Assembly (NCBI GenBank): GCA_003550305.1
Contig: QKYT01000009.1
Coordinates: 398,229 to 462,228 of the forward strand
Origin: Glomus cerebriforme
Lineage: Eukaryota > Glomeromycota > Glomeromycetes > Glomerales > Glomeraceae
Reading direction: 5' to 3'
Length of the DNA stretch: 64,000 bases
A program made the position numbers and the translations under genes. Under the pieces are notes generated by a model. That model searched no databases and had not been told where the DNA came from. It saw only the letters and a list, made by a program, of their open reading frames with translations. Below are positions 3,001-60,364 of this stretch, one piece after another; within the stretch, counting starts at the first letter, position 1; each line of letters starts with the position of its first letter.

Positions 3001-4621
3001 TCTGTGAAATTGGCGGACACCATTCCAAATTAATCTGATTCGTTCAAAATGCATGATTATGACGACCACAGTGACGTTTATTGGTTGGAACACGTTTTCT
3101 TTACTAATACAAAATATTTCATATAAACACTCATCGGGGTTCCCAATTTATGTATATTGTTGATAAATTCAAATTTCTCAATTATATGCATCAACGCGCA
3201 AAGAGCTTACTTAATATTAATAATTTATATTTAATTTTTTCAAAGATTTTTTGTTCGTCGAATTTGTAAAAACTCAATTTACTTTATATATATTTATGGT
3301 TAGTTCATAGAGTTATTACAAATAAACTCCGAAACAAAAAGAAAAGTATGTCCCGTTTTTAATTGTACAATTTATTTTGTCAAACGTTACTGTGTCTCGT
3401 AGCTTTTATTCCAATATCTATTTGTACTCGTAATCAAAATCCAATCCGTCCACAATTATATATTACTATTAAAATCAGCATACAATCTAAAAGTAGTTAC
3501 AGTAGTTTTTTCATCGTGAAAATCGATTTTATCGGGTATCATTTAAATTGTTTCCTTTTCAGAACATGTGACAAGGAAAATAAGAAATCAAAATTACGAG
3601 ATTAACATTATACCATTATACCTAGCAGATAGGTAACCAATTACTTCAATGAAGGAAATCAAAAGTTTATAGTTATAAATAAGTAGATGTTTAGTATATT
3701 AGTAAGATTTTATATACACAGTTTCTAGAAAATATCATCTATTTTATCTATTTTAATTTGCACCCAATTAAAAAAAAATCTAATAATCGACAAATAAAAA
3801 AAATATGTATATATGTCGTCTAATATGCTTTCTCGTGATTCTACGTAAACCTCTACCTTTTTGGATATTCCAAAGAAGTTCTGGACTATATAGAGTGCAT
3901 GCATGAAAAAAAACAATCTGCATACAGTACATAATTTTGTAGTGAAACGAATAATAATGATGTATAATTGGCATGAAGTAATTCCCTTTTATGGACATTG
4001 TTAAGATTTTTTAATATTAAATTAATTACGTGTCCAAGAAAATTTCTTTAATAAATTATTGAATATCCAAGAAATAATCCTTCCTAAATTTAATTTTCCA
4101 TTATTTTTATAAAAAAAAAATATATATATATATATTAGAGCCAGTTATCATTATTATAAATGTCTTAAGTATTTGCTAATCACGCAAATTATTTTAATCA
4201 TCCTTTTGCAGTAAAGATTATTCCAAATTTATAATAATTATAATAATGTTTCTATGTAAAAAAAAATTGTTAACATATATGTTATAATTAATCTCCAAAC
4301 GGTTTATATAATTAAAATATCTTTTACGCGTTCAATGACATTATTTTTTTTCTAATTTGATAAAAATTTTTTTAACCGACCATTGAGCATGTGATCAATA
4401 CATGAACACAACATCTCGATGTAACAAACGTGCACAATTCAAATTGATTGATTGGTCACCATAAAGAAAGTGATCAACATTTTGCTATAATGTGTGTAAC
4501 TCATATTTTTTTTTTTCAATAAAAATACTTCGTTTATTTTTTTACTTTTTTATCTTTCAAAAAAGTCAAATTTTGAGTTTTTTTTTTTAAAAAAAAAAAA
4601 AAAGTTCTTTTTTTCAATAAA
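3001..4621. other. Intergenic, includes promoter copy of second HMG gene
   Basis: No gene recognised at 3001-3960; an open frame near 3363 has no ATG start and no family resemblance. From about 3970 to 4450 the sequence parallels the upstream region of the first HMG gene. Just before the start codon there is a T run, an A run and then TCAATAAAATG. Confidence 0.45.
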
Positions 4622-21432: not shown

Positions 21433-22848
21433 TTACCAAAAGAATAAATGAGAGGAAGAACAGATTGTTGTCGAATTTATGGGTTCTATTCGCAATTTAC
21501 TACCATGTCCCAAGGAAACAATAGGATAAACTTGAGAAGAAATAGTATTCCATTCGGAAACTATAGGTTTCTTATTATTATTTATCGAAAATGCACACGT
21601 TCTCTTTTTCATATTCAGATGAACAGTAACAATATCTCCTTCTTTATATTTTGCATCATACCATTTCCATTTTCTTTTATGATAAACATAACCATCAGAC
21701 CCAAGAACCCACCCATGATAATCTTGATCGTCCTTTTTTAAATCCTCATTAATATCACATATGCCGATGTAGACTGTTTTACGTAACTTTTCAATTAAAA
21801 TCTTCCACTCGTAAATTCCTCTACCCTTAAAGATCAAATTTCCCAATATTGATTTCTGCGTAAATTTGGTAACAGTAAATCCATCTTTCAGATCATTATA
21901 ATGAAGTAGAACCATTTCTAGCAAATCTCTATCACTTTCCCACTTAAAAATAGGCACTCCACGAATAAATCCTAATCCCTCGTCCTCATTATCCTCACTC
22001 AATGATATGGAGCGATAACCGTCACTAATACTTTTAATTGGATAAATATCAAAAGGAGCAACATGTTGATCAATTTCTTTTGCATCCATTCGTTTTAAGT
22101 TAATATAATCAATTAATGGGATTAACCGATTTTTTATTCCTTCAATTACTTGTGAAGCACATGGTAAAAAAGATTTTTCTCTCAAGATTTTCTCAACGAG
22201 TGTTTCGTTTTTTGTGACATTTCTTATAACTTTTGCTAACGTATATTGCCAAATATCAAATTCTGATGTCGCAAAAGGAATTTGAGCATCAAGAGTTTTT
22301 TCTAAAAGATATCTTAACCCTTCTAATGATAGTGAATCAATTCTAGTTTTTTCCAGTTTATTCTTGGCTACCCAATCGACTAAAATTTTAGATATTTCAT
22401 TATCCACATTTAGGGAGAACTTTTCGACACATTCTGATAAAAGTTTTTTACCAACATCATCGTCTCCGTCCATCAAAGATTTATTTGTAAATTCAATAAT
22501 AAGATTCTGAAGGTCAACCAAATCAAAACGAATGGATGCATAATAAATTTCAATAACATTATTAACATTCAAGTTTTCTTTTTCAACTTTAGATGTATAT
22601 AAAAATTCCAATATAATTTTCATAGCTGTTGAATTAATATCATTAAATGACAAGCTATTGTTATTCTCCGATTCATTGGATTCAGTGAAAATGCATGAAT
22701 AGAAAAAATCGGAACGAGCCGCTAAAATGGCTTTACATCCATTTATAATTTTTCCGTTCGAACATTTTAAAGTAATATCATGAAACTTTTCATCATCGAT
22801 TATTCGTCTAAAATCATTTTCTAAAGATTTTCCCCTTAAAGAAAACAT
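21433..22848 (-). CDS. BTB-BACK-SPRY protein (array copy 7)
   Basis: 471 aa, intact. BTB is nearly identical to copy 6. From BACK onward it tracks copy 10 (MDGDDDVGKKLLSECVEKFS; GYRSISLSEDNEDEGLGFIR). The variable segment before SPRY is long and distinct (ESDRDLLEMVLLHYNDLKD). SPRY blocks are intact (VYIGICDINEDLKKDDQDY, GWVLGSDGYVYHKRKWKWYD, VTVHLNMKKRTCAFSIN). The C-terminus is extended by a hydrophobic/Ser-rich tail (TTICSSSHLFFW). An out-of-frame ATG at 22864 precedes the used start, as in copy 6. Confidence 0.9.
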   Translation of the reverse strand: MFSLRGKSLENDFRRIIDDEKFHDITLKCSNGKIINGCKAILAARSDFFYSCIFTESNESENNNSLSFNDINSTAMKIILEFLYTSKVEKENLNVNNVIEIYYASIRFDLVDLQNLIIEFTNKSLMDGDDDVGKKLLSECVEKFSLNVDNEISKILVDWVAKNKLEKTRIDSLSLEGLRYLLEKTLDAQIPFATSEFDIWQYTLAKVIRNVTKNETLVEKILREKSFLPCASQVIEGIKNRLIPLIDYINLKRMDAKEIDQHVAPFDIYPIKSISDGYRSISLSEDNEDEGLGFIRGVPIFKWESDRDLLEMVLLHYNDLKDGFTVTKFTQKSILGNLIFKGRGIYEWKILIEKLRKTVYIGICDINEDLKKDDQDYHGWVLGSDGYVYHKRKWKWYDAKYKEGDIVTVHLNMKKRTCAFSINNNKKPIVSEWNTISSQVYPIVSLGHGSKLRIEPINSTTICSSSHLFFW

Positions 22849-22864
22849 CGGTTTTAATTTTCAT
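22814..22864 (-). promoter_or_regulatory. Overlapping upstream ORF at copy 7 start
   Basis: Same arrangement as copy 6: the ancestral ATG at 22864 is out of frame with the used ATG and opens a 16-codon frame that ends inside the coding region. Confidence 0.45.
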
Positions 22865-22939
22865 TATACCGTATTATTTTATAGAATTGATGGGAAATTT
22901 TTTGAGCGTTAAATTTATCCAAAAAAAAATGTTCCTCTG

Positions 22940-22958
22940 AACTAACTATTTAAGTTAG
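22940..22958 (-). promoter_or_regulatory. Conserved upstream near-palindrome, copy 7
   Basis: AACTAACTATTTAAGTTAG, one base shorter in the centre than in copy 6, about 92-110 bases before the ATG. Confidence 0.4.
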
Positions 22959-23537
22959 TATTCTTTTGTGATGCACTCTAGGAAAAGTTAATACATAAAT
23001 TACGTAAATTCTTATGGCTAAAAAAAAATGGGCAGACGCGTAAATTAACTACAATGATAATCATTAAAAAAAATTGGCCACGGTCACTATTTTCTATGTG
23101 TAATGGCTTTTTTTGGCGTAATTCTCATATTATTCAAGTTTTCAATTAATTTAGGCTGGAATTATAAATTTGGCCAGAATTAATAAAATTCTGAAATATT
23201 TTTAAATCAATAGTTTAAGTCGATTAAAAAAATCTACTTTTCGTTAAATTATGCGTTGAACAGTTTAATAGAAATGATTTAACATAAAACCAAACTTAAA
23301 GTATGTGATAGCTCTTTATTATTTTAGTTGTTTTTTTTTATTGAAAAAAAAATTGTTCCCTTTTTTACAAAACATTTTTAAAGTGAATCTAATGCTATTT
23401 TTCTTGAAGATTGTTCGACGAATTTTATTATGGTGGCTCAATATTATATGTAATGTTACAACAATGGAATTTTTCGACGAGGAGCATTTGTATAATTTAG
23501 CCATGTTCATTTTTTTAAAAATAGAGTAGAAAATTTA
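22959..23537. other. Spacer between copies 7 and 8
   Basis: Duplicated flank DNA. GAATTTTTCGACGAGGAGCA and TTTGTATAATTTAGCCATG (about 23466-23505) match the downstream flanks of copies 7 and 10. Open frames at 23305-23529 on both strands lie in this repeat and are not supported as genes. Confidence 0.45.
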
Positions 23538-24935
23538 CTAAATTTTTGACGAATTTATGGGTTCTATTCGCAATTTACTACCATGTCCCAAGGAAACAAC
23601 GGGATAAACTTGAGAAGGAATATTTTTCCATTCAGAAACTATAAATTTCTTATTATTATTTATAGAAAATCCACATGTTTTCTTTTTCATATCCAGATGA
23701 ACAGTAACCTTATCACCTTCTTTATATTTTGCATCATACCGTTTCCATTTTCCTTCATGGTAGGCATAACCATCAGATCCAAGAACCCATCCATGATAAC
23801 CTTGATCATTTTTTCTCAAATCATCATTAATATTACATATGCCAATGTAGACTGTTTTACATAAATTTTCAATTAAAATATTCCACTCGTAAACTCCTCT
23901 ACCCTTAAATTTCAAATTTCCCGTTATTGATCTTTGTATATTAAATTGTTCGGTAACAGTAAATCCATCATTCGGAACATGAAAAAATGAAGATAGAAAC
24001 CTTGATGTCTGTTCCGGCCTATCAATTTTCCACTTAAAAATAGGCACTCCACGAATAAATCCTAATCCCTCCTCATTACCCTCATCCAATGATATGGAGC
24101 GATAACCGTCACTAATACTTTTAGCTGAATAAATTTCAAAAGGAGCAACATGTTGATCAATTTCTTTTGCATCCATTCGTTTTAAGTCAATATAACGAAT
24201 TAATGTGTTTAAATGAATTTTTATCTCTTTAATTTCTTGTGAATTACATAACGAAAAAGATTTTTCATCCAAGATTTTCTCAACGAGCGATTCGTTTTGT
24301 ACGATCTTTCTTGTAACTTTTTTTAAGGCATATTGCCAAATATCAAATTCTGGTGTCGCGAAAGGAATTTGAGCTTTAAATGTTTTTTCTAAAAGATATC
24401 TTAAACCTTCTAATGATAATGAATCAATTTTGGTTTTTTCCAGTTTATTCTTGGCTACCCAATCGACTAGAATTTTAGATATTTCGTTATCCACTTTTAA
24501 GGAGAATTTTTCGACACATTCTGATAAAAGTTTTTTACCAACATCGTCTCCGACCATTAAAAATTTCTTGATAAAGCCAATAATAAGATCCTGAAGGTCA
24601 ATCAAATCAAAATAAATGGATGCATAATAAGCTTCAATACCATTACTAACAGTTATTTTTTCTTCTTCAACTTTAGATGTATATAAAAATTCCAAAATAA
24701 TTTTCATAGCTGTTGAATTAATATCGTCAAATGAAAATTTATTATTATTCTTCGATTTAGTAAAAATGTATGAATAGAAAAAATCGGAACGAGTAGCTAA
24801 AATAGCTTTGCAACCATATATAATTTTTCCATCCGAACATTTTAAAGCAATGTCATGAAAATTTTCATCATTGATTACTCGTCTAAGGTCACCTTCTAAA
24901 GATTTTCCTCGTGGAGAAGGATTATTAATTTTCAT
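23538..24935 (-). CDS. BTB-BACK-SPRY protein (array copy 8)
   Basis: 465 aa, intact. The start is MKINNPSPRGKSLEGDLRRV. BTB at about 15-115 contains FHDIALKCSDGKIIYGCKAI; BACK at about 120-230. The segment before SPRY is the longest among the intact copies (IDRPEQTSRFLSSFFHVPND). SPRY has small changes at usually fixed places: SITGNLKFKGRG, RKNDQGYHGWVLGSDGYAYH and KKTCGFSIN (Gly for Ala). The copy-10 segment (RQEQALRFLP) is the nearest relative of this variable part. Predicted Cullin-3 adaptor. Confidence 0.9.
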   Translation of the reverse strand: MKINNPSPRGKSLEGDLRRVINDENFHDIALKCSDGKIIYGCKAILATRSDFFYSYIFTKSKNNNKFSFDDINSTAMKIILEFLYTSKVEEEKITVSNGIEAYYASIYFDLIDLQDLIIGFIKKFLMVGDDVGKKLLSECVEKFSLKVDNEISKILVDWVAKNKLEKTKIDSLSLEGLRYLLEKTFKAQIPFATPEFDIWQYALKKVTRKIVQNESLVEKILDEKSFSLCNSQEIKEIKIHLNTLIRYIDLKRMDAKEIDQHVAPFEIYSAKSISDGYRSISLDEGNEEGLGFIRGVPIFKWKIDRPEQTSRFLSSFFHVPNDGFTVTEQFNIQRSITGNLKFKGRGVYEWNILIENLCKTVYIGICNINDDLRKNDQGYHGWVLGSDGYAYHEGKWKRYDAKYKEGDKVTVHLDMKKKTCGFSINNNKKFIVSEWKNIPSQVYPVVSLGHGSKLRIEPINSSKI

Positions 24936-25016
24936 TGTATAGTATTTAATAGGATGAAAATTTTTTTTGGTTGAACGTTAAAATTCCCCAAAAATTTTAT
25001 AGTTAGATTTCTCTGA

Positions 25017-25034
25017 CTAACTAAATTAAGTTAG
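25017..25034 (-). promoter_or_regulatory. Conserved upstream near-palindrome, copy 8
   Basis: CTAACTAAATTAAGTTAG, about 82-99 bases before the ATG. In this copy the centre reads TAAATTAA, making it close to a perfect palindrome. Confidence 0.4.
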
Positions 25035-25539
25035 GCATAAATTAACCATAATGATAATTGTGATTTATATTGTTTTATTGATCCACAAAAAGCACTGGAC
25101 ATTAAAGAAAGCGTGCCATTTACTAAAAAGATAAAAAAATATTGCAGATCAATAAAATATACCTTTCGTCACGCTTAACAGTTTTTGTTTTCGATATCTA
25201 GTACTTATCTAGTTCTTTACGTGTTAATTATTTTTTTCTTTTAAAAAAAAATTTGTTTTAACCTCCCACAGACATTTTTAAAGGTGAGTTTAATTATTAT
25301 TATTATTTTTTGAAGTAGATGGTTATTCAAACATTTTTTATTGTGGTGGCTTAGATGCTTAGTAAGTTAGTATTAACATATATAATCATTAATCATTCCT
25401 AACAATTAGGCATTAAGGGTGAACACCGTCAATTTTTATATTAAAATAACATCACACCAGTATTACATCGGTGTAATATCGAACTGGTGTAGTATGGCAA
25501 TTTCATAAATAGAGTAAGAATAAAATTTTGACGATTTCT
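25035..25539. other. Spacer with a hairpin-forming inverted repeat
   Basis: ATCCACAAAAAGCACTGGAC and downstream sequence recur at about 29410. Near 25451-25490 ACACCAGTATTACATCGGTG and TAATATCGAACTGGTGT can fold on themselves. No gene. Confidence 0.4.
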
Positions 25540-26270
25540 GATTCTATTTGCAATTTACTATTATGTAGAATATAAATGAGAAGGAATATTTTTTCATTCT
25601 ATAATTGGCATTCATCGAATTCCAATATTTATATTTCTCATGGAAGCTTTGTTCAAATAAAGTGTTCGAGGAATTAGAATTCCTTATATTCTATAATAAA
25701 TATTAAATTCCAAAAGAATGTTTTTATTTAACAAAAAAAATTATATATATGGTATAATCGGTATACTGTATGTAAAGCTGTAATAAAGATATTTCGTACT
25801 AGTTCTTCATGAGCTTCTTCTCATGTCCCAAGGAGGCACTAGGATAAACTCGAAAGGAACATTTTCCATTCAGTAAGTGTAGATATCTTATTATTATTGA
25901 TTGAAAATGTGCACAGTAAACATCATAAAATTTTTACACTATCAACCTTGGATCAATAAATCCTTTTATTAATATTACATATACCGAAACATGTAATTTT
26001 CAACTGAAAGATACAATACCTGTAAATTTCATTATTTTATTACACTAAAATCACATCCTTAAATATTGATTCGGTTGATAATTGCTCAACAACAAATCCA
26101 TAATTGTTTGTTTGATCATCTGCTGATGTACAGTATCTTATTCATTATTTTCCAGGTGTGTACTCCCATGAATAGATTCAAATTCCTTATCCTTTGTTTG
26201 GAAAAATAAATATCTTTGAGTTTTTCATTTAAACAATATTAAGAGATAATTAAATTTATTATGAATTACA
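25540..26270 (-). pseudogene. Decayed SPRY-end fragments of BTB-BACK-SPRY copies
   Basis: Two eroded C-terminal ends. The first (about 25540-25665) still has the terminal GCAATTTACTA and GAGAAGGAATATT blocks. The second (about 25806-26250) reads like copy 5 with many small deletions: ATGTCCCAAGGAGGCACTAGG, TTATTATTGATTGAAAATGTGCAC, AATATTACATATACCG, AAATATTGATTCGGTTG and AACAACAAATCCATAATT. Reading frames are destroyed throughout. Confidence 0.75.
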
Positions 26271-26934
26271 CTTTACTGAAATGTTTTAAATTGTATATAT
26301 ACATAGTAACCAAATTGTGACCAAATAATATAGCTTTTAGCTATAAATTTGATACGATCTAGTAACACATTAGTCTACTATGATAAAGAATTAGTCAACA
26401 TGCAGTTACTGCGCATTAAGACGATCATAAATCAATTTCACGACTAAAACAATAAATATACTGTATTAACATCTATTTATTAGAATGTTGTTAAAAAAGT
26501 GGTCAAAAATTTATTAAAGAAATCAATTTACCCGACTCAAAAAAAATTTCGTAAAGAAATGGGAGAATATTTGTTCAAAAATCATGAAGATTATATTAAT
26601 AATTTTACATCAAAGTACAAGAAATATTTTTATAGAAACGTAAGTTTCAGTAGAATTAGAAGTTCTGCATTATTTATCTGACTTTTTTTTATCCAATAAG
26701 TTTTATTTATTTTCTGTTAGATTCTACAACAAATTAGAAACACTGAATAAAGGAACAAAAATGCAGTATTTTCTGTATTCAGAAAGCAGCAACTTCTACC
26801 ATAAAAACAAATGCACTATCTGCAGCTGTAGACAAATGGAAGAATGGAATAGCTGTAAAAATTGTCATAACAAATTATTTAAACTGATGGATGCAGGTAA
26901 TAAAAAAATCAATAATAATGCTTTGTCAAAAATG
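26271..26934. other. Unassigned stretch with a possible small spliced ORF
   Basis: A 60-codon frame from 26499 (KKFRKEMGEYLFKNHEDY) is followed after a GTAAGT-like site (26641) and a TTAG acceptor (about 26721) by a frame at 26761-26952 with C-x2-C and C-x2-C pairs (CTICSCRQM...SCKNCH). This could be a small zinc-binding exon, but no family is recognised and it runs into a BTB relic. Low confidence that it is a gene. Confidence 0.2.
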
Positions 26935-27360
26935 AATAGTGAAAATGGATGAATAGAAAAATCGGAACGAATTGCTAAGATTGCTTTATATCCATTTATA
27001 ATTTTTCCATCCGAACATTTTAAAGTAATATCATGAAACTTTTAATCATCGATTATTCGTCTAAACTCTTTTTTTTTTTTTTTGTTTTAACAGCATATTT
27101 TATTAATTGTAATTGTAATAGAAAATAAAACACAAAATACATAAAAAAATAAAATATATGGATCTCGTTTCTATCTAGTTTACATAAATAAGAATTTAAA
27201 AAGTAAAACTAATCTAAATGCCTACGCTATAAACCTAATATAAAAACATATCCAGTATACAACTTCACAATGAGAGGTCGCAACCAGATCGACCATCCAG
27301 AAAGTATCCGATTATTCGTCTAAACTCATTTTCTAAAGATCTTCCTCTTAAAGAAAACAT
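26935..27360 (-). pseudogene. BTB N-terminal relic split by a retroposon
   Basis: About 26935-27068 and 27328-27360 together equal the first BTB segment of a copy-6/7-like gene (compare 22690-22848). The 240-bp retroposon at 27069-27308 separates them. The rest of the gene is missing. The upstream near-palindrome survives at 27451-27470. Confidence 0.8.
27069..27308 (-). mobile_element. Poly(A) retroposon insertion (SINE or 5'-truncated LINE) with 19-bp TSD
   Basis: A 240-bp insert begins on the plus strand with 15 T (27069-27083), that is, a poly(A) tail on the minus strand. It is flanked by the exact 19-bp direct repeat CGATTATTCGTCTAAACTC at 27050-27068 and 27309-27327. Poly(A) plus a long target duplication is the hallmark of LINE-type target-primed insertion. 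The minus-strand head contains GGTTGCGACC, a weak resemblance to a Pol III B box, so a SINE is possible. No ORF. Confidence 0.85.
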
Positions 27361-27809
27361 CAGTTTTAATTTTCATTATACCGTATTATTTTATAGAATT
27401 GATGGGAAATTTTTTGAGCGTTTAAATTTATCCAAAAAAAATGCCTTCTGAACTAACTAATTTAAGTTAGTATTCTTTTGTGATGCATTCTTGGAAAGTA
27501 AATTTTTATGGCTAAAAAAATATACACGTCATAATTTAGGCTGGAATTATAAATTTCGCCAAATAATACAGTAATATTTTAATTATGCTGATCGATCGAA
27601 GGTATGTTCCTTTTTTACAAAAATAATTTTAAAGGTGAATCATAGAGAAGCTTAATAGTTTTTTATGCTTTTATTCTTAATTTTTTTTCCTTGTAGATTG
27701 TCCACAAATTTTTTATTACGATAGCTTAATATTAATATGTTACATTGATTTAATTAAAGGAAATGGAATTTTTCAGTGAGGAGTATTTGTATAATTTAGC
27801 TATGTTTAT
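27361..27809. other. Duplicated flank between the relic and copy 10
   Basis: Repeats the copy-6/7 upstream region (CATTATACCGTATTATTTTA, the near-palindrome, TTATGGCTAAAAAAATATAC), then the copy-7/8 downstream region (TTTTTCAGTGAGGAGTATTT). No gene. Confidence 0.5.
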
Positions 27810-29270
27810 TTACCTTATAAAAATCTCAGGCATGTTACCATAAAAATAAAGAGGAAGAATAGAGTTTGACGAATTTATGGGTTCTATTCGCAATTTACTA
27901 CCATGTCCCAAGGAAACAATAGGATAAATTTGAGAAGGAATAGTATTCCATTCGGAAACTATAGGTTTCTTATTATTATTTATAGAAAATGCACATGTTC
28001 TCTTTTTCATATCCAGATGAACAGTAACAATATCTCCTTCTTTATATTTTGCATCATACCATTTCCATTTTCCTTTATGGTAAACATAACCATCAGATCC
28101 AAGAACCCACCCATGATAATCTTGATCATTCTTTTTCAAATCCTCATTAATATCACATATGCCGATGTAGACCGTTTTACTTAACTTTTCAATTAAAATC
28201 TTCCACTCGTAAACTCCTCTACCCTTAAAGATCAAATTTCCCAATATTGATTTCTGCGTGAGTTCGGTAACAGTAAATCCATCTTTCGAACCATTATAAG
28301 GTAGAAACCTTAACGCCTGTTCTTGTCTATTACTTTTCCACTTAAAAATGGGCACTCCACGAATAAATCCTAGTCCCTCATCCTCATTATCCTCATTCAA
28401 TGATATGGAGCGATAACCGTCACTAATACTTTTTGCTGGATAAATATCAAAAGGAGCAACATGTTGATCAATTTCTTTTGCATCCATTCGTTTTAAGTTA
28501 ATGTAACCAATTAATGGGGTTAACCGGTTTTTTATTCCTTCAATTTCTTGTGAAGCACACGGCGAAAAAGATTTTTCCCTCAAGATTTTCTCGAGTGTTT
28601 CATTACTTGTGACATTTCTTATAACTTTTGCTAACGTATATTGCCAAATATCAAATTCTGGTGTCGCAAAAGGAATTTGAGCATCAAGAGTTTTTTCTAA
28701 AAGATATCTTAAACCTTCTAATGATAATGAATCAATTTTAGTTTTTTCCAGTTTATTCTTGGCTACACAATCGATTAAAATTCTAGATATTTCATTATCC
28801 ACATTTAAAGAGAATTTTTCGACACATTCTGATAATAGTTTTTTAACAACATCTTCGTCTCCGATCAAAGATATCTTTGTAAATTTAATAATATAATCTT
28901 GAAGGTCAATCAATTCAAAATAAATGGATGCATAATAAACTTCAATAACATTATTAACAGTTAAGTTTTCTTTTTTAATTCTAGATGTATATAGATATTC
29001 CAATATAATTTTCATAGCTGTTGAATTAATATCGTTAAATGAACAGCTATTCTTATTCTCCGATTCAGTAAAAATGTATGAATAGAAAAAATCGGAACGA
29101 GCTGCTAAAATGGCTTTACATCCATTTATAATTTTTCCGTCTGAACATTTTAAAGCAAAATCATGAAATCTTTCATCCTCGATTATTTGTCTAAAGTCAT
29201 TTTCTAAAGATGTCCCTCGTGGAGAAGAATTATTAGAATTATTAGAATTATTTGAATTATTAATCCTCAT
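27810..29270 (-). CDS. BTB-BACK-SPRY protein (array copy 10)
   Basis: 486 aa, the longest intact copy. The N-terminus MRINNSNNSNNSNNSSPRG carries an Asn/Asn/Ser repeat from an AATTATTAG-type microsatellite (about 29228-29265). BTB begins FHDFALKCSDGKIINGCKAI. BACK has the variant ILIDCVAKNKLEKTKIDS (Cys for the usual Trp). The segment before SPRY is SNRQEQALRFLPYNGSKDGF. SPRY is complete. The C-terminal tail is long and hydrophobic (SSNSILPLYFYGNMPEIFIR) and is not shared with copies 1-6. Confidence 0.9.
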   Translation of the reverse strand: MRINNSNNSNNSNNSSPRGTSLENDFRQIIEDERFHDFALKCSDGKIINGCKAILAARSDFFYSYIFTESENKNSCSFNDINSTAMKIILEYLYTSRIKKENLTVNNVIEVYYASIYFELIDLQDYIIKFTKISLIGDEDVVKKLLSECVEKFSLNVDNEISRILIDCVAKNKLEKTKIDSLSLEGLRYLLEKTLDAQIPFATPEFDIWQYTLAKVIRNVTSNETLEKILREKSFSPCASQEIEGIKNRLTPLIGYINLKRMDAKEIDQHVAPFDIYPAKSISDGYRSISLNEDNEDEGLGFIRGVPIFKWKSNRQEQALRFLPYNGSKDGFTVTELTQKSILGNLIFKGRGVYEWKILIEKLSKTVYIGICDINEDLKKNDQDYHGWVLGSDGYVYHKGKWKWYDAKYKEGDIVTVHLDMKKRTCAFSINNNKKPIVSEWNTIPSQIYPIVSLGHGSKLRIEPINSSNSILPLYFYGNMPEIFIR

Positions 29271-40803: not shown

Positions 40804-40954
40804 TTGGATGGGGGTGGATATTTTTGTTCCCCTATCCAATAACTATTTAATATAGCCATATCCATATAATTGATGAGAATGTATAAATATAACCCACAAA
40901 TATCAATTTTTGAAACCAGCTTAATTATCTTTCCAAATATCTCTCAACTCTCAA

Positions 40955-41524
40955 ATGAATCTGATCTTTATTTTCTTATTTCTTTTTGGACTCAGCAGAA
41001 CCTTTGCTTGGGATCCATATCCTGACTGTTCTGGTAAGTTTATTTATCAGTATATATTTTTTGACAATTTCTTATTAAATCATCTGTTCATATTATCTCT
41101 ATGAAAATAAAAAGATGTTAGTATTGACCAATTCCAATGGGTGGCGAAAGATGCATTCACGGTCCACTTTCACAGCCCACCTTCAGTTGGTTGCACTCGC
41201 CATGGCAGTCAAGCAGGCGTAGAAATTATTAGCGATTATAATTTTGGCTCTATTTATAATATATGGTCAGAACGTGAGTGGGTGAATGGATACAATGAGA
41301 ATAATATTCAAAATTGTGGCCGTACAGGTTGTCCAAATTGTGAACATGAATATCAAGGACAACAAGACTACTTGTGGTCCGGCTATATTGACCGTTCCAA
41401 ATTTCCCCCATCAGGATCTAACATCACTCTCAATGCTAAAGTATATCAAAAATGCTGGTATGACGGTCAAACACATTGCGGAGATTGTTCATTAAACCTT
41501 CAAATACCTTCACCACCATCATAA
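40955..41524 (+). CDS. Small secreted cysteine-rich protein (two exons)
   Basis: Proposed exons are 40955-41033 and 41115-41524, joined across a GTAAGTT...AAAAG intron that keeps the frame, giving 162 aa. Exon 1 encodes a clear signal peptide (MNLIFIFLFLFGLSRTFA, cleavage probably before WDPYPDC). The mature part has eight cysteines (PDCS, VGCT, NCGRTGCPNC, QKC, HCGDC), an even number that suits disulfides, and no membrane segment or anchor. A likely extracellular protein; small secreted proteins of such fungi include effectors acting in plant roots, but no function can be assigned here. A tight TATAAATATAACC region sits about 70 bases upstream. Single copy in this window. The splice sites are my reading of the sequence. 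Confidence 0.75.
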
Positions 41525-53141: not shown

Positions 53142-53179
53142 CTACTTTGAATAATTATAATACATGGACTTATAATCAT

Positions 53180-54677
53180 ACGTATAAAAATTAATAAATT
53201 CAAACATCTTTGATAATTTGAAATACTTCATATTCTTCCAAGTCGAAAACCCCTTTTTTGATCTTAAATTTTTTTCGTAGTTCAGTTTATCACAATAACC
53301 AAAAGTACTAGATCCAATATAAAAATCCTCGCCAAAACATGAGCAAAACNCGGTATTAGATAAAAATGCTTTATGGTAGTTTCTCACTCTACTTAAAATA
53401 ACATCATTGAGGTTCATAAGTGAAAAAGAAAATATAAAACTTTCNTTAGTTTCAGAATATCCAAAATCATCTTTAGATTTCCATGTAAGAGGATTATACC
53501 CTCCAAGAATTTCACTAGTTTCTTTCACTTTAGCAATTGATACAGTTTTATGTTTGTTATCACAGAGTCTATGAAAACTATCAGAAGAAAATCCATCACG
53601 GCTTCCGCGTAATAATAATTTAAATTTATAAGGATTATTCAAAGGATTATAAGGTTGAAATCCATAAAGAGGATGTTGATTCTCTTTTCTATCAATCCAA
53701 CTTGCAATATATGCTGCGGTTTTACTTGTAATTAATTTTGAATCAATATTTGAACCTCTTGCCAGTTGAACCGTTAAAACGATCTTATTATCACCATCCA
53801 AATAATAACTCATTAAATCTTTATAAAGTTGAGGTTTCAATAATTTTTGATAAGGTGCCACTTTTTTTAAGAATTCTTTTGATGATATTTGAAAAAATCT
53901 AATAAATGGTAAACATTTTTGTAAAGTATTTTCCATCAATTTAAAATCATCATCTGACCAANTATCNGGATTTGGAAACAAAGTAGGATTTTGTGCAAGT
54001 CCCCATTTTAATACTTGCTCCCAAATATCGATTTCTTCTATTTTTAAATCATCTCGTTTAATTAAAGAAATTAAGGNTNTTTCTTGAATAGAAGAGAAGT
54101 CAAGTNATTTAAATATTTTTTCAGGGTATTTTGACATAATATCTGTACAAAATTTTTGAAGTTCAATAAACGAATCATGTTGAAAAATTGCGTTATGAAT
54201 AAGAGTAAAATGTTGTTCTATCCAATTAGATTCATTTTTAATCAAGTATGGCTGTAAATAATTGACTATTTCTTGTAAATTAAGACTTTCAGCCGCAATC
54301 AATTAATTATATCTAAAGTTTCAATTTTATCCAAAGTAAGAATACCGCCATAAATGTATCTAATAAATTACGTAAATAAAGTTAGTTTAAATATATATAT
54401 ATATTCGTCTTTAAACAACTTACTTTAAAATGACTTGAAAGATATTTGGAGAAATGTTTGGTAATTTAATATGAGTTAAAGTACCATCAGAATTCTTTTT
54501 ATTCGTAGATAATTTCCTACGAAAATAAACTGACCGATAATTTAAAATAACCATATGTGCCCGAAATATTTTTACTTGAGTATCTTGCCCAACTTCGATG
54601 GTAATATCAAAATATTCATCATCATCTAAAATGCTACTAAAATTTTGTGATAAATGTGAAAAAAATTGGACTGCCAT
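53180..54677 (-). pseudogene. Frameshifted BTB-BACK-TLDc paralogue with ambiguous bases
   Basis: Mirror copy of the 45178-46708 gene. Exon 1 is 54677-54424 (MAVQFFSHLSQNF, YFDITIEVG, RAHMVILNYRSVYF) and the intron 54423-54360 lies at the same position (ILK|YIYGG). Exon 2 starts at 54359. In exon 2 a 4-base deletion near 54299-54305 (AATTGATTGCGGC versus AATTTATTGGTTGCGGC) breaks the frame. It reopens and carries BACK and TLDc (SNIDSKLITSKTAAYIASWI, FKLLLRGSRDGFSSDSFH, EILGGYNPLTW). A second frameshift near 53240 scrambles the closing EEYEVFQ block. Seven N bases lie inside (53350, 53445, 53962, 53967, 54077, 54079, 54106). Either a young pseudogene or a poorly assembled paralogue. Confidence 0.85.
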
Positions 54678-54875
54678 TATTAAAAAAAAAAGATTTTTTT
54701 TTAAAGTTAAATCAAATGCATTGACATTGGTTTTTATGCTAGTTTCCGGTGGTACAAAATAATATTGGCTAAATTTCCACGTGTCAATAATAAAATTACA
54801 AATCTCGGATATACGTGATGATCATGAATCACTGGTGATTCAACAGATCATTTATAATTATTGTGATTAAATATT

Positions 54876-55372
54876 GGTTTCATAATATATATATTATGAA
54901 ACCTACTTGTATAGTGAAAACTGATTTTCTTCACAACTTCGATGCATCAGAGGAGATGAGGAGAGATATGTTTGCTCACTATTTAAAGTTGTTATGCAAG
55001 TTGGCTTACAATTAAAGTTGTGCCAAAATTTCGTGTTGACTTTACAAGTTCAGAGATGCATACAGGAAGAGGAAGGGCACTGATAACTCCTCCTACGGAG
55101 GAATAATAGCCATATCCCTGCTGTCTACTAGGTTCGTCTTGTAGCATCCTGTTATCTCCTATTGCTTATTTTGTTGTCTCCTGTTGTGCATTTCCCATTG
55201 ACTAACATGATAATCCATAAGGTTAGTCAGGGCTCATACGAGCCCTTCTCCATAAATTAGCCAGAGCTGTTAACTGAATATGTTAGCCCTGTAGCCTCCT
55301 GTGGTCTCCTATAGTCCTATTACGTTGTCTCCTATTATGCTAATCCCTGTTGTGTTTTTCCCTGTTGTCTAC
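54876..55372 (+). repeat. Left terminal inverted repeat of the primase-helicase element
   Basis: Begins with a perfect 28-bp palindrome (54876-54903, GGTTTCATAATATA centre). It continues with GTGAAAACTGATTTTCTTCA, TTTCGTGTTGAC, TGATAACTCCTCCTACGGAG, CATATCCCTGCTGTCTACTA and GGTTCGTCTTGTAGC, all mirrored at the right end. The motif TTGTCTCCTRTTRTGC recurs (about 55171 and 55324). An insertion of about 50 bp near 54950-55015 distinguishes it from the right arm. Confidence 0.85.
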
Positions 55373-55676
55373 CGGGTCCCTGTTGTTGACGAGATTATTG
55401 TTGACGGAAAATATATTTGTCAACTAGGTTGTTGTCAACAAGATTAGTCCCATTGTTAACACGTAGTATACTTGTTACTCATTTTACTCATTAGCACTAC
55501 AAACCTCTTTGTGGATGCTTCCCTCTCTTCATTTGGTAGGCCAGGTGAACTACGTTATCATTTATTGTTTCCCTGATATTTTTATTTTCGTGGCCTACCA
55601 CTTAATTACAATATGGCCTCCTACTTTATCTGAAATTTTTTCTTTGTTAGATTATTGTTATGCATTTTTGTCTATA

Positions 55677-56213
55677 CCATCACTAAATTTTCAAGAGGTC
55701 CGATGACCATCACTGCTCAAAAATGTAAAATTTACGTTAAGAATTTAACGTAAATTTGACGTTTGAAGTGTTCAATTACTGTCAGATGACAAGCACATTC
55801 ATTGGACGGTATGTTTATCATGCTTATAAACAGTAATTGGACGATTTCGTTTTATAACAGGTAATTTGTAGATCTTTTTTTAAAAAATTATATATTTTTT
55901 GATTTTTATTGAATAAATAAAATTATTTAGTATATAATTAAAAACAAAACCAAATAGTCTAGTTGTTGGGGTGTGAGATAATTGTGAGATATATTATTAA
56001 AGACATATTCGGTTCGATTCCTTATATAAACAAAAAAAAAAAGAATTTTTTATTAAATATATTATCAAATAAAATTTTCCGTCAGTATCACATATAACTA
56101 ACGGTCTGTGGACGTCCATTATTAACGTCCAACCTACGAAGGGTCTGACAATGGATAGTCAGTGGACATTCTGTCCATTGATGGTTATCGGACCTCTTGG
56201 AAACTTAGTGATG
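55677..56213. mobile_element. Inverted-repeat element nested in the primase-helicase element
   Basis: The left end CATCACTAAATTTTCAAGAG, then GTCCGATGACCATCA is mirrored by the right end (reverse complement CATCACTAAGTTTCCAAGAG, then GTCCGATAACCATCA). About 537 bp. The centre contains a tRNA-like segment and poly(A). No ORF. It appears to have inserted after the host element was in place. Confidence 0.65.
55955..56042 (+). mobile_element. tRNA-like SINE head or tRNA pseudogene with poly(A)
   Basis: TAGTCTAGTTGTTGGGGTGT resembles a Pol III A box region; GGTTCGATTCC at 56011-56021 is an exact B box. A/T-rich sequence lies between, and a 12-A run follows at 56031-56042. The spacing (about 50 bases) suits a tRNA-derived Pol III promoter. 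The arms do not fold into a complete tRNA that I can trust, so it is a SINE or tRNA relic rather than a gene. Confidence 0.5.
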
Positions 56214-56499
56214 ACATCTTTACGCAAAAGTGGGACAAAAAAAAAAATGCCAGGAAATTCAGTCAACGCTTAAAGCATTTTGGTAGATCACCACTTAATT
56301 ACACAATAGCCCTTCTGTTTTATCCAAATTGCCTCGATTATTATTATGCATTTGCGTCTAAGTCTCTGCATAAACAGTTTTATGTGTCCTACCTTTTTTT
56401 TATTTACAAGCGATTCAAATTGTCTTTAGGGTGTCTTCTATACCTTCACATGAATTATTTTTATTTGAACATTTATTTTTGTTTAGAAATATATGATAA

Positions 56500-57660
56500 A
56501 ATCTGCCGAAATTATCATGAGCTACATTGTTGATTTTGATAAAGATTATGATTCTTATCATGATGATAATGACGCAAGCAACACATGATTCAGATTCAGA
56601 TGAATTTTCTGTTGAGGATCCAAATAATTACTATAATGAATCCATATCTGAGAACTAACCAATTATACATCAGGATCGTAATTTTAAAGAGCTAGGAAAA
56701 CATCTTGTTGTTATTTGAGATGGAACTATTGGAGATTTTCTAAGAGTAAATGATTTGCAATACCTTGATGAGATTATAGAATTCGTAGAGGTAGAATTAG
56801 ATGAGTATATTAATGGATCCAGCCTCAACGCCCCATAATTGATTTTGACATGTCTATTTCTGAAGTCCATACAAGTGTATTAAAAGAGAATAAAAATTTT
56901 AGCTCTCTTAGCGAAACTTTTCATATAATTTGTAAAGAGTTGTTTCCAGTTGGGATAAAACACTTTTACGTTTCATATAACTGTGGGCCAACTAAGTTGT
57001 CATATCATTTATCCACTTTTGGACTTCGGCTACAGAACAATGAGTGTTCACTGAATTATTTCGTATGTATTTGCCTCTTCCTTGCAAAAATATGTAGATC
57101 ATAATATCATTAAAAAAGGATATTTTGTGCATATGCTCAATACGCCAAAAAAATGATAGGAAAACTGGACAACATGTGTGGTATAAAAGAGTACTAATCC
57201 CCAAGACTAACAATATTTCTACTTTTATGATTCAGCCACCGATGACAATGCACTGATTGTACTTATTTCTGAAAAAAATAGAAACCAATGTGTTTACTCC
57301 ATAAGCCCATATTACAAAAGTCTTTTGATATTCTACCAGTTGAAAATAGATTTTGCATGACTGTATAACTAAATTATTTGACAACTGTTTGTCACTTGGT
57401 GGGTTAAAGGGTTCAATCATCCCATTATCATATGTAAATGACTGGAAGTGTCCTGTATGACCTCTAAAGGATGGCAAAACCATACGTATCCATGAAAAAG
57501 AAAACGCATATATATCTGTTACAGATAAAGATTTCTGGTTTAACTGTCATCATTCTCAAGCTAATAAAAAATCGAAAAGTATACATTTAGGACCTAGAGA
57601 AAATAAAGACAAGGTATCTACATATAAAAGACAATCCTTTGATGAAAGGTTCGATGTTAT
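56500..57660 (+). pseudogene. Archaeo-eukaryotic primase (PrimPol-like) remnant
   Basis: The AEP catalytic motif I is readable as PIIDFD (Asp-Phe-Asp at 56841-56849). Motif II is SYHLSTFGLRL, with the S-x-H triplet at 57000-57008, in the same frame. An acidic leader (HDSDSDEFSVEDPN) precedes it at about 56579. After about 57100 the frame is broken repeatedly. Further family-like stretches appear in other frames (KENAYISVTDKDFWFNCHHS at about 57500-57560). AEP-type enzymes make primers for DNA replication. This copy cannot make an intact product. It lies directly before, and probably was once fused to, the helicase. Confidence 0.7.
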
Positions 57661-58650
57661 GATAAAAAACCTGCGAAACTTCCATCACTTCCTGCAACAA
57701 TTCGTAACGTAAAAGATATAGAAGTCGCACCTGAATTATTTCCTGATTTTACAAGTTGGGTACATACCACAACATTTATTCGTTCAGTTATGACCACATT
57801 GAAATCCAAAGCACTTCAAAATCTCATTGCTAAAATAATACACATATGTGATAGTACACTGAATTGCCTCGGCCATGTTTTATTTTTAATACATTCCAAA
57901 AAACACTCGGTAGGGAAACGTTAGAAGCAGTGAAAAATTACGTGAGACAAACCTGAAGGTTATTTACTACGAAGATACTGACGAATGTTATTTGGAAACA
58001 ACAGAATGGGACATTATTATTGTCCAATCAGAAAGTTTACATAAAGCGCATCATTCCCCTTTGCGAATGTCAGTGGTAATTCTTGACGAAGTTAATGCTA
58101 TTCTAAGGAAAACATGGAGTAGGTATAATTCATGAGAGACTTTTCAGCAGGCCTTAGAAACTCTTATGGAAGTGTCCACTCATGTTCTTGCCATGGACAC
58201 GCATGCAAGTTACGTGGCCTTGAATACTTTGAAAGCTTATCATAGTGATGACATTCGTGTTTTTAACAATATATTTTAACCACGAACAAGTGAGGTAGTC
58301 GAAATTACAGGCAATGTTAAAGAGGTGCAACACATAGGATTTGAATATCTTAGAACTGGCAGGAGAGCATGTTTTGCTGTAACATCGTGTAGAAAAACTA
58401 GAGCCATCGCTGAGCTTGTTGACCCTCAAGTGGTAACTGAGCATGTTACAAAAATAATTAAGCCTGATGGTCCTGCGGTGAAAGTTCATGCATATTATGG
58501 TAATATGGATGATGAGATCTGACGTCGTGACTTTGAAAATATTAATGCTGCGTGGAGCTCTCTTGATTGCGTTATATATACTAACACTGTCAGAGCAGGA
58601 ATATCTTTTGAAGTGCCCGGGCACTTTGATGTGGTCTGTTTTGTCTGTTA
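57661..58650 (+). pseudogene. Origin-binding-protein-like SF2 helicase remnant
   Basis: Successive frames give a superfamily-2 helicase of the type annotated as replication-origin-binding protein. A Walker A region (RSVMTTLKSKAL, about 57781-57816) has lost its glycines. Then come a DExx box (ILDEVNAI, Asp-Glu-Val-Asn at 58085-58096), a motif-III-like VLAMDT (58184-58201) and a C-terminal lobe (INAAWSSLDCVIYTNTVRAG and ISFEVPGHFDVV, about 58530-58630). At least three frame changes and several stops separate these. Such helicases open replication origins. The loss of the Walker A glycines as well as the frame shows this copy is dead. Confidence 0.7.
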
Positions 58651-59591
58651 ATCAGATGTTAGTAATTCATTATCATAGATAGGGTCAATTAGCTCAAAAA
58701 TTCTAGTCTTGTTTTCAGGTGATGCATTAAATAACCTTTTATAACAACTGTCTAGTTGCTCTAATAAATAAATCTTGGTATTTAGTCTTAAAATATTTCG
58801 TCTCTTATAGAGTTCACGACGAATCTCTTTATACAATTTGCGGTTAAGGTGGAAGCAATTCTCAAGATTTTCTACTGGGAATTTTCGACCAATAAATAGA
58901 AATCTGTTTCGAATCTTTTCATTAACAAACTACTCGGTCTGTAAAGCCAGGGAATAATATTTCTTTGAATTTGTTTACGATATTATTATTGTATTTGAAG
59001 TTCGAAGTACTGGAACAAATAAGTCCGTACATATAGAAATTTGTCTCTCGTGCGACAGTATGATCTACCTGTTCACGGTTCACCACATTATACATATTCG
59101 GTTTATTCATGCGTCACGAATAGTGTTAATGTATGTCTGTACCATTGACTCTGATTCAGGAAAAGGACTCCATCCCTCATAGAATTTTGCTTTGTCATGA
59201 ATACGGGATGCCCATGAATGAAAACTTTCACCAGTTTGCCTTTCTAATGCGTTCATTGTTAAAGTGTTATTTCCTTGTACATAAATAAATTCAACATTTG
59301 TAAATAGAAATCGTCTCTCCAGTCATTTGAAAAATAACGTTCCTTCGGGGCTGACAAAGAATGCAAAATTTTTTCGGGATTGGGTTGTTTAGTTTCCGAA
59401 GTGTAACGTTCATGAATAACTGGTTTTTTATTTTCTCTTGGTAAAGCCATTTTTCCGGAGGAACTATCAAAAGATGATAGGTGTTTCACTTTAAGTATCT
59501 GATTTTGTGCCAGAATAAAATTAACAACAGTAAAATAAGTATTATTTTTGTATAGTGGCTTTCTCCATATTGAAGTTCGTTGATCCACCAA
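58648..59591 (-). pseudogene. Second gene of the element, unknown function, broken in four frames
   Basis: Minus-strand pieces follow each other: 59591-59259 (110 codons, RTSIWRKPLYKNNTYFTVVN), 59256-59107 (49 codons, ALERQTGESFHSWASRIHDK), 59110-58922 (62 codons, joined by an ATGA overlap) and 58836-58648 (62 codons, LYKRRNILRLNTKIYLLEQL). They look like one protein of roughly 300 aa broken by small indels. It is convergent with the helicase. No domain recognised. It might be the element's own DNA-binding or terminal protein, but nothing in the sequence proves that. Confidence 0.45.
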
Positions 59592-59838
59592 ATTTTAAAT
59601 ATATATACTGTATATATACATATATTTCATATTTTGTGTTTTGTCAGATGAAACTTGATACTTTTTCATAGAAGACTGCTCCTAATCGTTGCTTATACAC
59701 GTTGCATGCTGTTTTGATTGTGTCTAACTCGAATGATTTTGTTGAAAGTTCAGACTCCCGCTTCTGCAATTCATTTGTCTTCGCAGAAATATCAGGTATC
59801 TCCGCATTTTTTGACGTTAAAATAGATATACTTAGCTA

Positions 59839-60364
59839 GTAGACAACAGAGATAAGCATAACAGGAGACAACATTATAGGCTATAGGAGACCACAGGCTA
59901 TAGGACTAACATGTTAACAGCTCAGGCTAATTTATAAAGAAGGGCTCGTATGAGCCCTGACTAACCTCATGGACAATCATGTTAGTCAATGGGAAATGCA
60001 CAACAGGAGACAACAAAATAAGCAATAGGAGATAACAGGACGAACCTGTTAACAACTTCAGCAGCCGACTAGTGGAGAAGAGCTTATAAAGAACACTAAC
60101 TAACCTCATAGACTAACCTAGTAGACAATGGGATAAGCACAATAGGAGATTACAAAATAGGCAATAGTAGGCTACAAGACGAACCTAGTAGATAGCATGG
60201 ATATGGCTATTATACCTCCGCAGGAGGAGTTATCAGTGCATATCTGAACTTGTGATGTCAACACGAAATTTCTGCACAACTTTGAGTTATGAAGAAAATC
60301 AGTTTTCACTTCACAATATAAGTAGGTTTCATAATATATATATATATATATTATGGAACCTACT
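59839..60364 (-). repeat. Right terminal inverted repeat of the primase-helicase element
   Basis: Reverse complement of the left arm with about 80-90 percent local similarity by eye. It ends in a 44-bp near-perfect palindrome (60321-60364) with an (AT)n core. Its CTCCTRTTRTG-type motif occurs at least three times (about 59860, 60005 and 60140). The block ATAACAGGACGAAC/ATAGGAGATAACAGG is duplicated within the arm (about 60000-60040 and 60140-60190). Confidence 0.85.

Follow-up and report, generated by a model that had tools for sequence, protein, structure and literature searches.

Which kind of element combines long inverted repeats with genes for DNA replication and shows no transposase? 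This question is raised by a 64-kb stretch of the genome of Glomus cerebriforme (QKYT01000009.1, positions 398229-462228; contig label C1032), referred to here as the window. At window positions 54876-60364 it contains a 5.49-kb element, whose gene pairing a preliminary description had assigned to self-replicating elements rather than to cut-and-paste transposons. According to that description, terminal inverted repeats (TIRs) bound remnants of an archaeo-eukaryotic primase (AEP) and of a superfamily 2 (SF2) helicase resembling origin-binding proteins (OBP). We consider it fairly probable that the window element is a decayed short member of a Glomeromycotina family, in which a gene for an AEP primase and an OBP-type helicase lies between TIRs whose outermost 36-62 nt are palindromic. 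The relatives, together with their palindromic ends, suggest that an integrating linear replicon lives in arbuscular mycorrhizal fungi.

Inverted repeats and gene remnants in the window

The inverted repeats, described as about 500 bp long, are real and their coordinates were right. Global alignment of the two arms gave 350 matches and 27 mismatches in 377 aligned columns (92.8%), next to 325 gap columns that include the end gaps and a 129-bp stretch found only in the right arm. Seven inverted pairs were listed, six of which (I1-I4, I6 and I7) connect the two arms and are 81-95% complementary. The best arm-to-arm BLAST piece has an E-value of 6.3e-71, and a chance origin of the pairing is therefore excluded. 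Each arm terminates in an AT-rich palindrome, which the preliminary description does not mention; the one at the left end is the sole perfect palindrome with arms of at least 14 bp in the 64-kb window. The G+C content is 34.2% in the element versus 27.1% in the remainder of the window.

The gene pieces between the arms are in different frames and contain stops. The proposed helicase was confirmed: the open reading frame (ORF) piece 57914-58135(+) matches the Pfam family PF02399 (Herpes_ori_bp) with 21.1 bits (E 9.4e-5), which passes the cut-off of 20, and OBP proteins of Glomeromycotina are matched by piece 57646-57924 at 44% (E 4e-10) and by piece 58280-58522 at 40% (E 3e-14). For the primase, the DFD and SYH motifs are readable upstream of the helicase as described; for the piece 56814-57104 that contains them, neither the Pfam scan nor tblastn and BLASTP against relatives gave a match, and the window primase thus rests on motifs and gene order. 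A Pfam scan of ten ORF pieces at E 10 resulted in the PF02399 match, one weak unrelated match (0.036) and eight pieces without a match. No transposase was among them, in agreement with the preliminary description.

Relatives with a replication gene and palindromic ends

A PF02399 search of the same genome detected 20 OBP-helicase loci, the one in the window included. By tblastn they were assigned to subtype A (C730, C953, C1101, C734, C134, C918, C200, C12, C908, C181 and C490), subtype B (C986, C475, C579, C484, C838, C562 and C331) and subtype C (C442 only). The window helicase is a subtype of its own, with B as the nearest (41% over 218 aa). Since its pieces are only 40-46% like the best Glomeromycotina proteins, this subtype has no close relative among the sequences compared. 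Related proteins amounted to 83 matches for type A and 195 for type B, 120 of the latter being listed. The species among the matches listed belong to Rhizophagus, Glomus, Funneliformis, Gigaspora, Diversispora, Entrophospora, Paraglomus, Cetraspora, Scutellospora and Racocetra, all of which are Glomeromycotina. The locus C442 (L035:162-2006) shows a third helicase subtype with a DES box in a 615-aa open frame; no recombinase-like neighbour was found there.

At C730 the gene is an intact ORF of 1202 aa. Its helicase part matches PF02399 with 56.4 bits (E 2.1e-15), above the curated Pfam cut-off, and solved origin-binding-protein chains with E 2.9e-5; the match to CyRepA1 (NCBIfam; 150.8 bits, E 6.7e-44) is below the cut-off of 200. 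The structure of the first 480 residues was predicted with low overall confidence and a better core. Among known folds it comes closest to the primases of pithovirus, African swine fever virus (ASFV) and cedratvirus, at low TM-scores, as well as to mpox E5 and human PrimPol. Residues 357-449 correspond to the Zn-binding part of E5. An AEP fold, at modest scores, and the catalytic motifs characterise the N-terminus as a predicted AEP-type primase.

The gene order around these loci is recurrent. Downstream of the OBP gene, on the same strand and 2.5-3.6 kb away, 14 of the 20 loci have a recombinase-like gene (about 8e-31, simple binomial), and in several subtype A loci a 173-aa ORF lies between the two. 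In 14 chosen rows of the recombinase-like protein, the first R is present in 13 (one X), the K and the second R in all 14, and the Y in each of the 12 rows that extend to the final box. All other tests (profile, PDB and hhalign) were negative, and we use "tyrosine recombinase" as a label predicted from these motifs. Upstream of the OBP gene, table comparison revealed a repeated terminal segment, oriented as expected and no more than 9 kb away, at 10/20 loci. At C181 the 5' part of the OBP gene is missing. C918 is flanked on either side by inner parts of the terminal segment, which are 20 kb apart and lack the outermost part.

The terminal segment of the relatives ends in a palindrome of 58-62 nt, and at C730 and C986 it contains 32-bp tandem repeats. 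Near-perfect palindromes, with 27-29 of 29 pairs, were present at 12 of the 13 A/B ends read. When 11 palindromes were placed in one register, 97.8% of cells paired, compared with a mean of 90.7% in shuffles, none of 2000 being as high; six pairs were doubly changed, a number reached by 74 of the 2000 shuffles, which take no account of common descent.

Three relatives have both ends and span 38-46 kb: C986 with arms at 3600-4240 and 40804-41460 that are 98% identical, C200 with ends at 94942 and 140452, and C257 with ends at 85588 and 126566. The target duplications that the preliminary description had proposed to look for are present in all three, 5 bp long (ACTGT, ACTTT and AAAGT, both flanks read directly), and none was found at the window copy. 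Some enzyme therefore integrates the relatives. The OBP gene lies inside C986 and C200, which are thus mobile elements, and the earlier suggestion of a family held in that TIR-bounded relatives with a primase-helicase gene occur in the same genome and related proteins in many Glomeromycotina. C257 contains the 173-aa ORF and the recombinase-like gene with no OBP match; possibly the replication gene was lost from this copy or has diverged in it. The interiors of C986 and C200 are mostly unread, and that of C986 is incompletely known because positions 22000-28999 are N.

The two-ended copies bear on the published view of these genes. For Rhizophagus irregularis, the part of PMC10234402 available to us gives OBP genes a potential viral origin followed by vertical inheritance, as stated for IPR003450 genes, three of which are tabled; helicase-primase genes were taken out of an R. 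irregularis gene annotation as transposon-related, according to the accessible text of PMC8647823. It appears to us very improbable that a single acquisition from a virus gave rise to the OBP genes as ordinary, vertically inherited genes next to unrelated repeats, because the same arrangement of genes, terminal segments and palindromes, along with target duplications, is found again on different contigs and the two-ended copies with the gene already contradict this view. Our analysis places OBP genes of Glomeromycotina in repeated elements with terminal segments, in contrast to the vertically inherited genes in print.

Alternatively, the loci could be endogenised fragments of a large DNA virus. 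Asfar-, pitho- and pox-like viruses can have hairpin-ended TIRs at their genome ends, and the primase model is closest to the primases of pithovirus, ASFV and poxvirus. This likeness to proteins of nucleocytoplasmic large DNA viruses comes from a modelled structure, in a comparison that covers the primase alone. A 1.5-Mb endogenous viral region has been published for R. irregularis, yet in the part of that report available it is described as lacking D5 primase and SFII helicase (PMC10640383). What we observed here are separate short insertions, each with its own ends and target duplications, and a helicase of OBP type rather than of superfamily 3 (SF3). IMG/VR, scanned with the intact protein in a way that detects close relatives only, contained no match; capsid genes were not searched for. 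We therefore regard a viral origin of the fragments as improbable.

Other genes are found close to the relatives. Crinkler N-terminal domains (PF20147) are encoded near the primase-helicase gene on C986 (L028:1346-1813, E 7.5e-23) and C730 (L024:1860-2780, E 1.2e-10), and a Crinkler-like match to PF20147 on C734 (L033:8589-8984, E 0.0043) is below the cut-off. A segment like the upstream one occurs near Crinkler genes, and the genome contains at least 40 copies of it. Leucine-rich repeat (LRR) proteins adjoin the recombinase-like gene in either orientation (L024:3541-4899 on C730 and L028:3652-4335 on C986), and DNA similarity suggests the same neighbour at C734 and C838. Given the Crinkler-domain genes on C986 and C730, the elements might contribute to the dispersal of effector-type genes in a mutualistic fungus.

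Feature layout and other copies of the window's inverted repeats

The features of the window element are collected in Table 1. The probable later insertion has 35-bp direct repeats, 77% alike, at both of its sides, and one piece of the convergent minus-strand gene has short matches elsewhere in the genome (C633 and C645).

Table 1. Features of the element, in window coordinates.
Feature	Position	Strand	Basis
Left terminal inverted repeat, about 480 bp	54876..55354	+	repeat search, BLAST, arm alignment
Left terminal palindrome; 28-nt perfect core at 54876-54903, AT-rich centre; outermost 4-5 bases unlike other copies	54876..54911	.	
Probable later insertion	55592..56329	.	unmatched at related locus C470; own inverted repeats 55678-55722/56169-56213
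Primase-like remnant, DFD and SYH motifs	56814..57104	+	motif and position only
Remnant of the N-terminal half of an OBP-type SF2 helicase with a DEVN box; two ORF pieces that differ in frame	57646..58135	+	PF02399 and relatives
OBP-type helicase remnant, C-terminal half	58280..58682	+	piece 58280-58522 has matches; joint stretch to 58636 matches subtype B
Convergent gene remnants, kind not recognised; pieces of 93, 63, 71, 111 and 63 aa	58648..59835	-	ORFs
Right terminal inverted repeat, about 534 bp; 129-bp stretch not in left arm; three 47-bp direct repeats	59831..60364	-	repeat search, arm alignment
Right terminal palindrome; 24-bp arms with 2 mismatches when scored two bases past each side	60321..60364	.	

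BLAST detected the window's TIR type on ten other contigs (C978, C352, C282, C470, C1090, C138, C576, C280, C387 and C535). A 20-base end pattern had nine matches on seven contigs and none in the reversed control; it added ends at C22:22290-22325 and C681:10909-10928, resulting in 12 other contigs altogether. On C22 the pattern is present on both strands within 36 bases, as in a palindrome. Among five contigs examined, only C470 shares sequence adjoining the TIR with the window, namely 56330-56724 directly upstream of the primase-like piece, and the flanks of this site are unrelated to those of the window element. Two open frames at window 53142-54821, by eye a BTB-type gene, stop about 55 bp short of the element's left end. 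A gene of similar appearance (BTB-type by eye) starts about 170 bp away from the TIR end at C470, and the flanks are not common to both.

Several observations weigh against a replicon and bring in the capture of a gene piece by a cut-and-paste element. A long-TIR DNA transposon (MULE-like or with another DDE enzyme) could have picked up part of a replication gene that is useless to it, its transposase being encoded elsewhere. The window element of 5.5 kb encodes no transposase recognised by Pfam, and no helicase match was found around the TIRs of its type at the five of 12 contigs examined. DDE enzymes make target duplications of the 5-bp type, which those of the relatives resemble. The fold matches of the N-terminus have low TM-scores. 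Instead of the many intact TIR-bounded copies that the preliminary description had named as support for a family, two two-ended copies contain the gene. A recombinase-like gene is found at 14 of the 20 OBP loci, along with the 5-bp duplications; both tell against part of the earlier claim. In its favour, a linear replicon is compatible with the palindromes at the ends and with the subterminal repeats. Relatives encoding a transposase had been named as evidence against that claim. None that we could recognise was found, the recombinase-like gene being the closest approach.

Nevertheless, we consider capture unlikely. Ends built in the same way accompany the replication gene repeatedly, with the terminal segment upstream and the recombinase-like gene in order at the frequencies given above. 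In addition, the intact ORF at C730 and full-length kin in other Glomeromycotina argue that the gene is maintained. We infer that the window copy belongs to this primase-helicase family, rather than having met a helicase by chance.

Proposed mechanism and comparison with known systems

How an integrating linear replicon of this kind might work can be sketched from its anatomy, from which we infer hairpin ends, self-replication, an extrachromosomal stage and the identity of the integrating enzyme. For part of its life cycle the element would be a linear molecule whose ends are folded back into hairpins. Together, its replication gene and subterminal repeats are probably arranged like an origin with its initiator: the OBP-type helicase would bind the repeats and open the DNA, the primase would start synthesis, and host polymerases would copy the element. 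Copying through a hairpin would produce both palindrome arms from one template and keep their symmetry while the sequence drifts; selection on symmetry is an alternative cause. The linear form would then join the chromosome via a 5-bp staggered cut. As tyrosine recombinases normally make no 5-bp duplication on integration, the recombinase-like protein may be something else, e.g. an enzyme that resolves the palindromic ends, or integration may be due to another enzyme.

We regard the element as a variant of self-replicating integrating elements. The bolder reading is that the elements form a categorically new class among the mobile elements of eukaryotes. As an integrating linear replicon, such an element would have hairpin telomeres and be primed by its own AEP-OBP enzyme, an R-K-R-Y telomere resolvase/integrase would act on the palindromes, and Crinkler and LRR genes would be carried as cargo. 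We hold this to be doubtful. We found no description of these elements in titles and abstract openings of the literature, mostly outside subscription journals and preprints, nor in the available parts of PMC11075540, PMC10175614, PMC10234402, PMC8647823, PMC10899382, PMC10640383, PMC6431247 and PMC4642659. Surveys of transposable elements name Maverick and Crypton families (PMC11075540, in the part available). Should the ends be hairpins, Glomeromycotina would harbour a type of integrating linear replicon for which the literature so covered holds no description.

Polintons/Mavericks and Polinton-like viruses resemble the elements in size class, TIRs and many integrated copies in eukaryote genomes; some Polinton-like viruses combine a primase-helicase with a tyrosine recombinase, and major and minor capsid proteins and a packaging ATPase are among their features (accessible text of PMC4642659). 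In contrast, the helicase here is of OBP-type SF2, not SF3, and the ends are palindromic. The target duplication of Polintons/Mavericks, which also have a retrovirus-type integrase, is 6 bp, whereas it is 5 bp in 3/3 two-ended copies here. The polymerase family PF03175 had six matches in the genome and none on contigs with an OBP match or on C257, in an exon-wise search of a gapped assembly that did not extend to capsid genes. One PF03175 match (C447:308162-308719) belongs to an open frame of 1136 aa, and a copy of the repeated upstream segment lies about 2 kb away.

Teratorn, a herpesvirus joined with a piggyBac-like transposon, likewise unites a replicon and a mobility function in one integrating element (PMC10175614, in the part available); it differs in its size of 180 kb and in its virion genes and piggyBac-like transposase, neither of which was recognised in the pieces of elements analysed here. 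Cryptons and Starships are similar in having a recombinase-like R-K-R-Y gene and cargo genes and in being fungal. To our knowledge they have no long TIRs, and they differ from the present elements, whose ends carry target duplications and whose recombinase is predicted by motif.

Linear replicons of the poxvirus, ASFV and Borrelia type have hairpin ends. The elements share with them inverted terminal repeats, palindromic outermost ends (at nearly all A/B ends read and both window ends), subterminal repeats and a replication gene of their own; they differ in being known here from chromosomal copies with 5-bp duplications, with hairpins as a putative feature. Finally, the helicase domain is related to those of the herpesvirus-type origin-binding protein (PF02399) and of the cyanobacterial plasmid protein CyRepA1, whereas here it is fused to a primase-like domain at the N-terminus, one region of which corresponds to the Zn-binding part of E5 from poxviruses.

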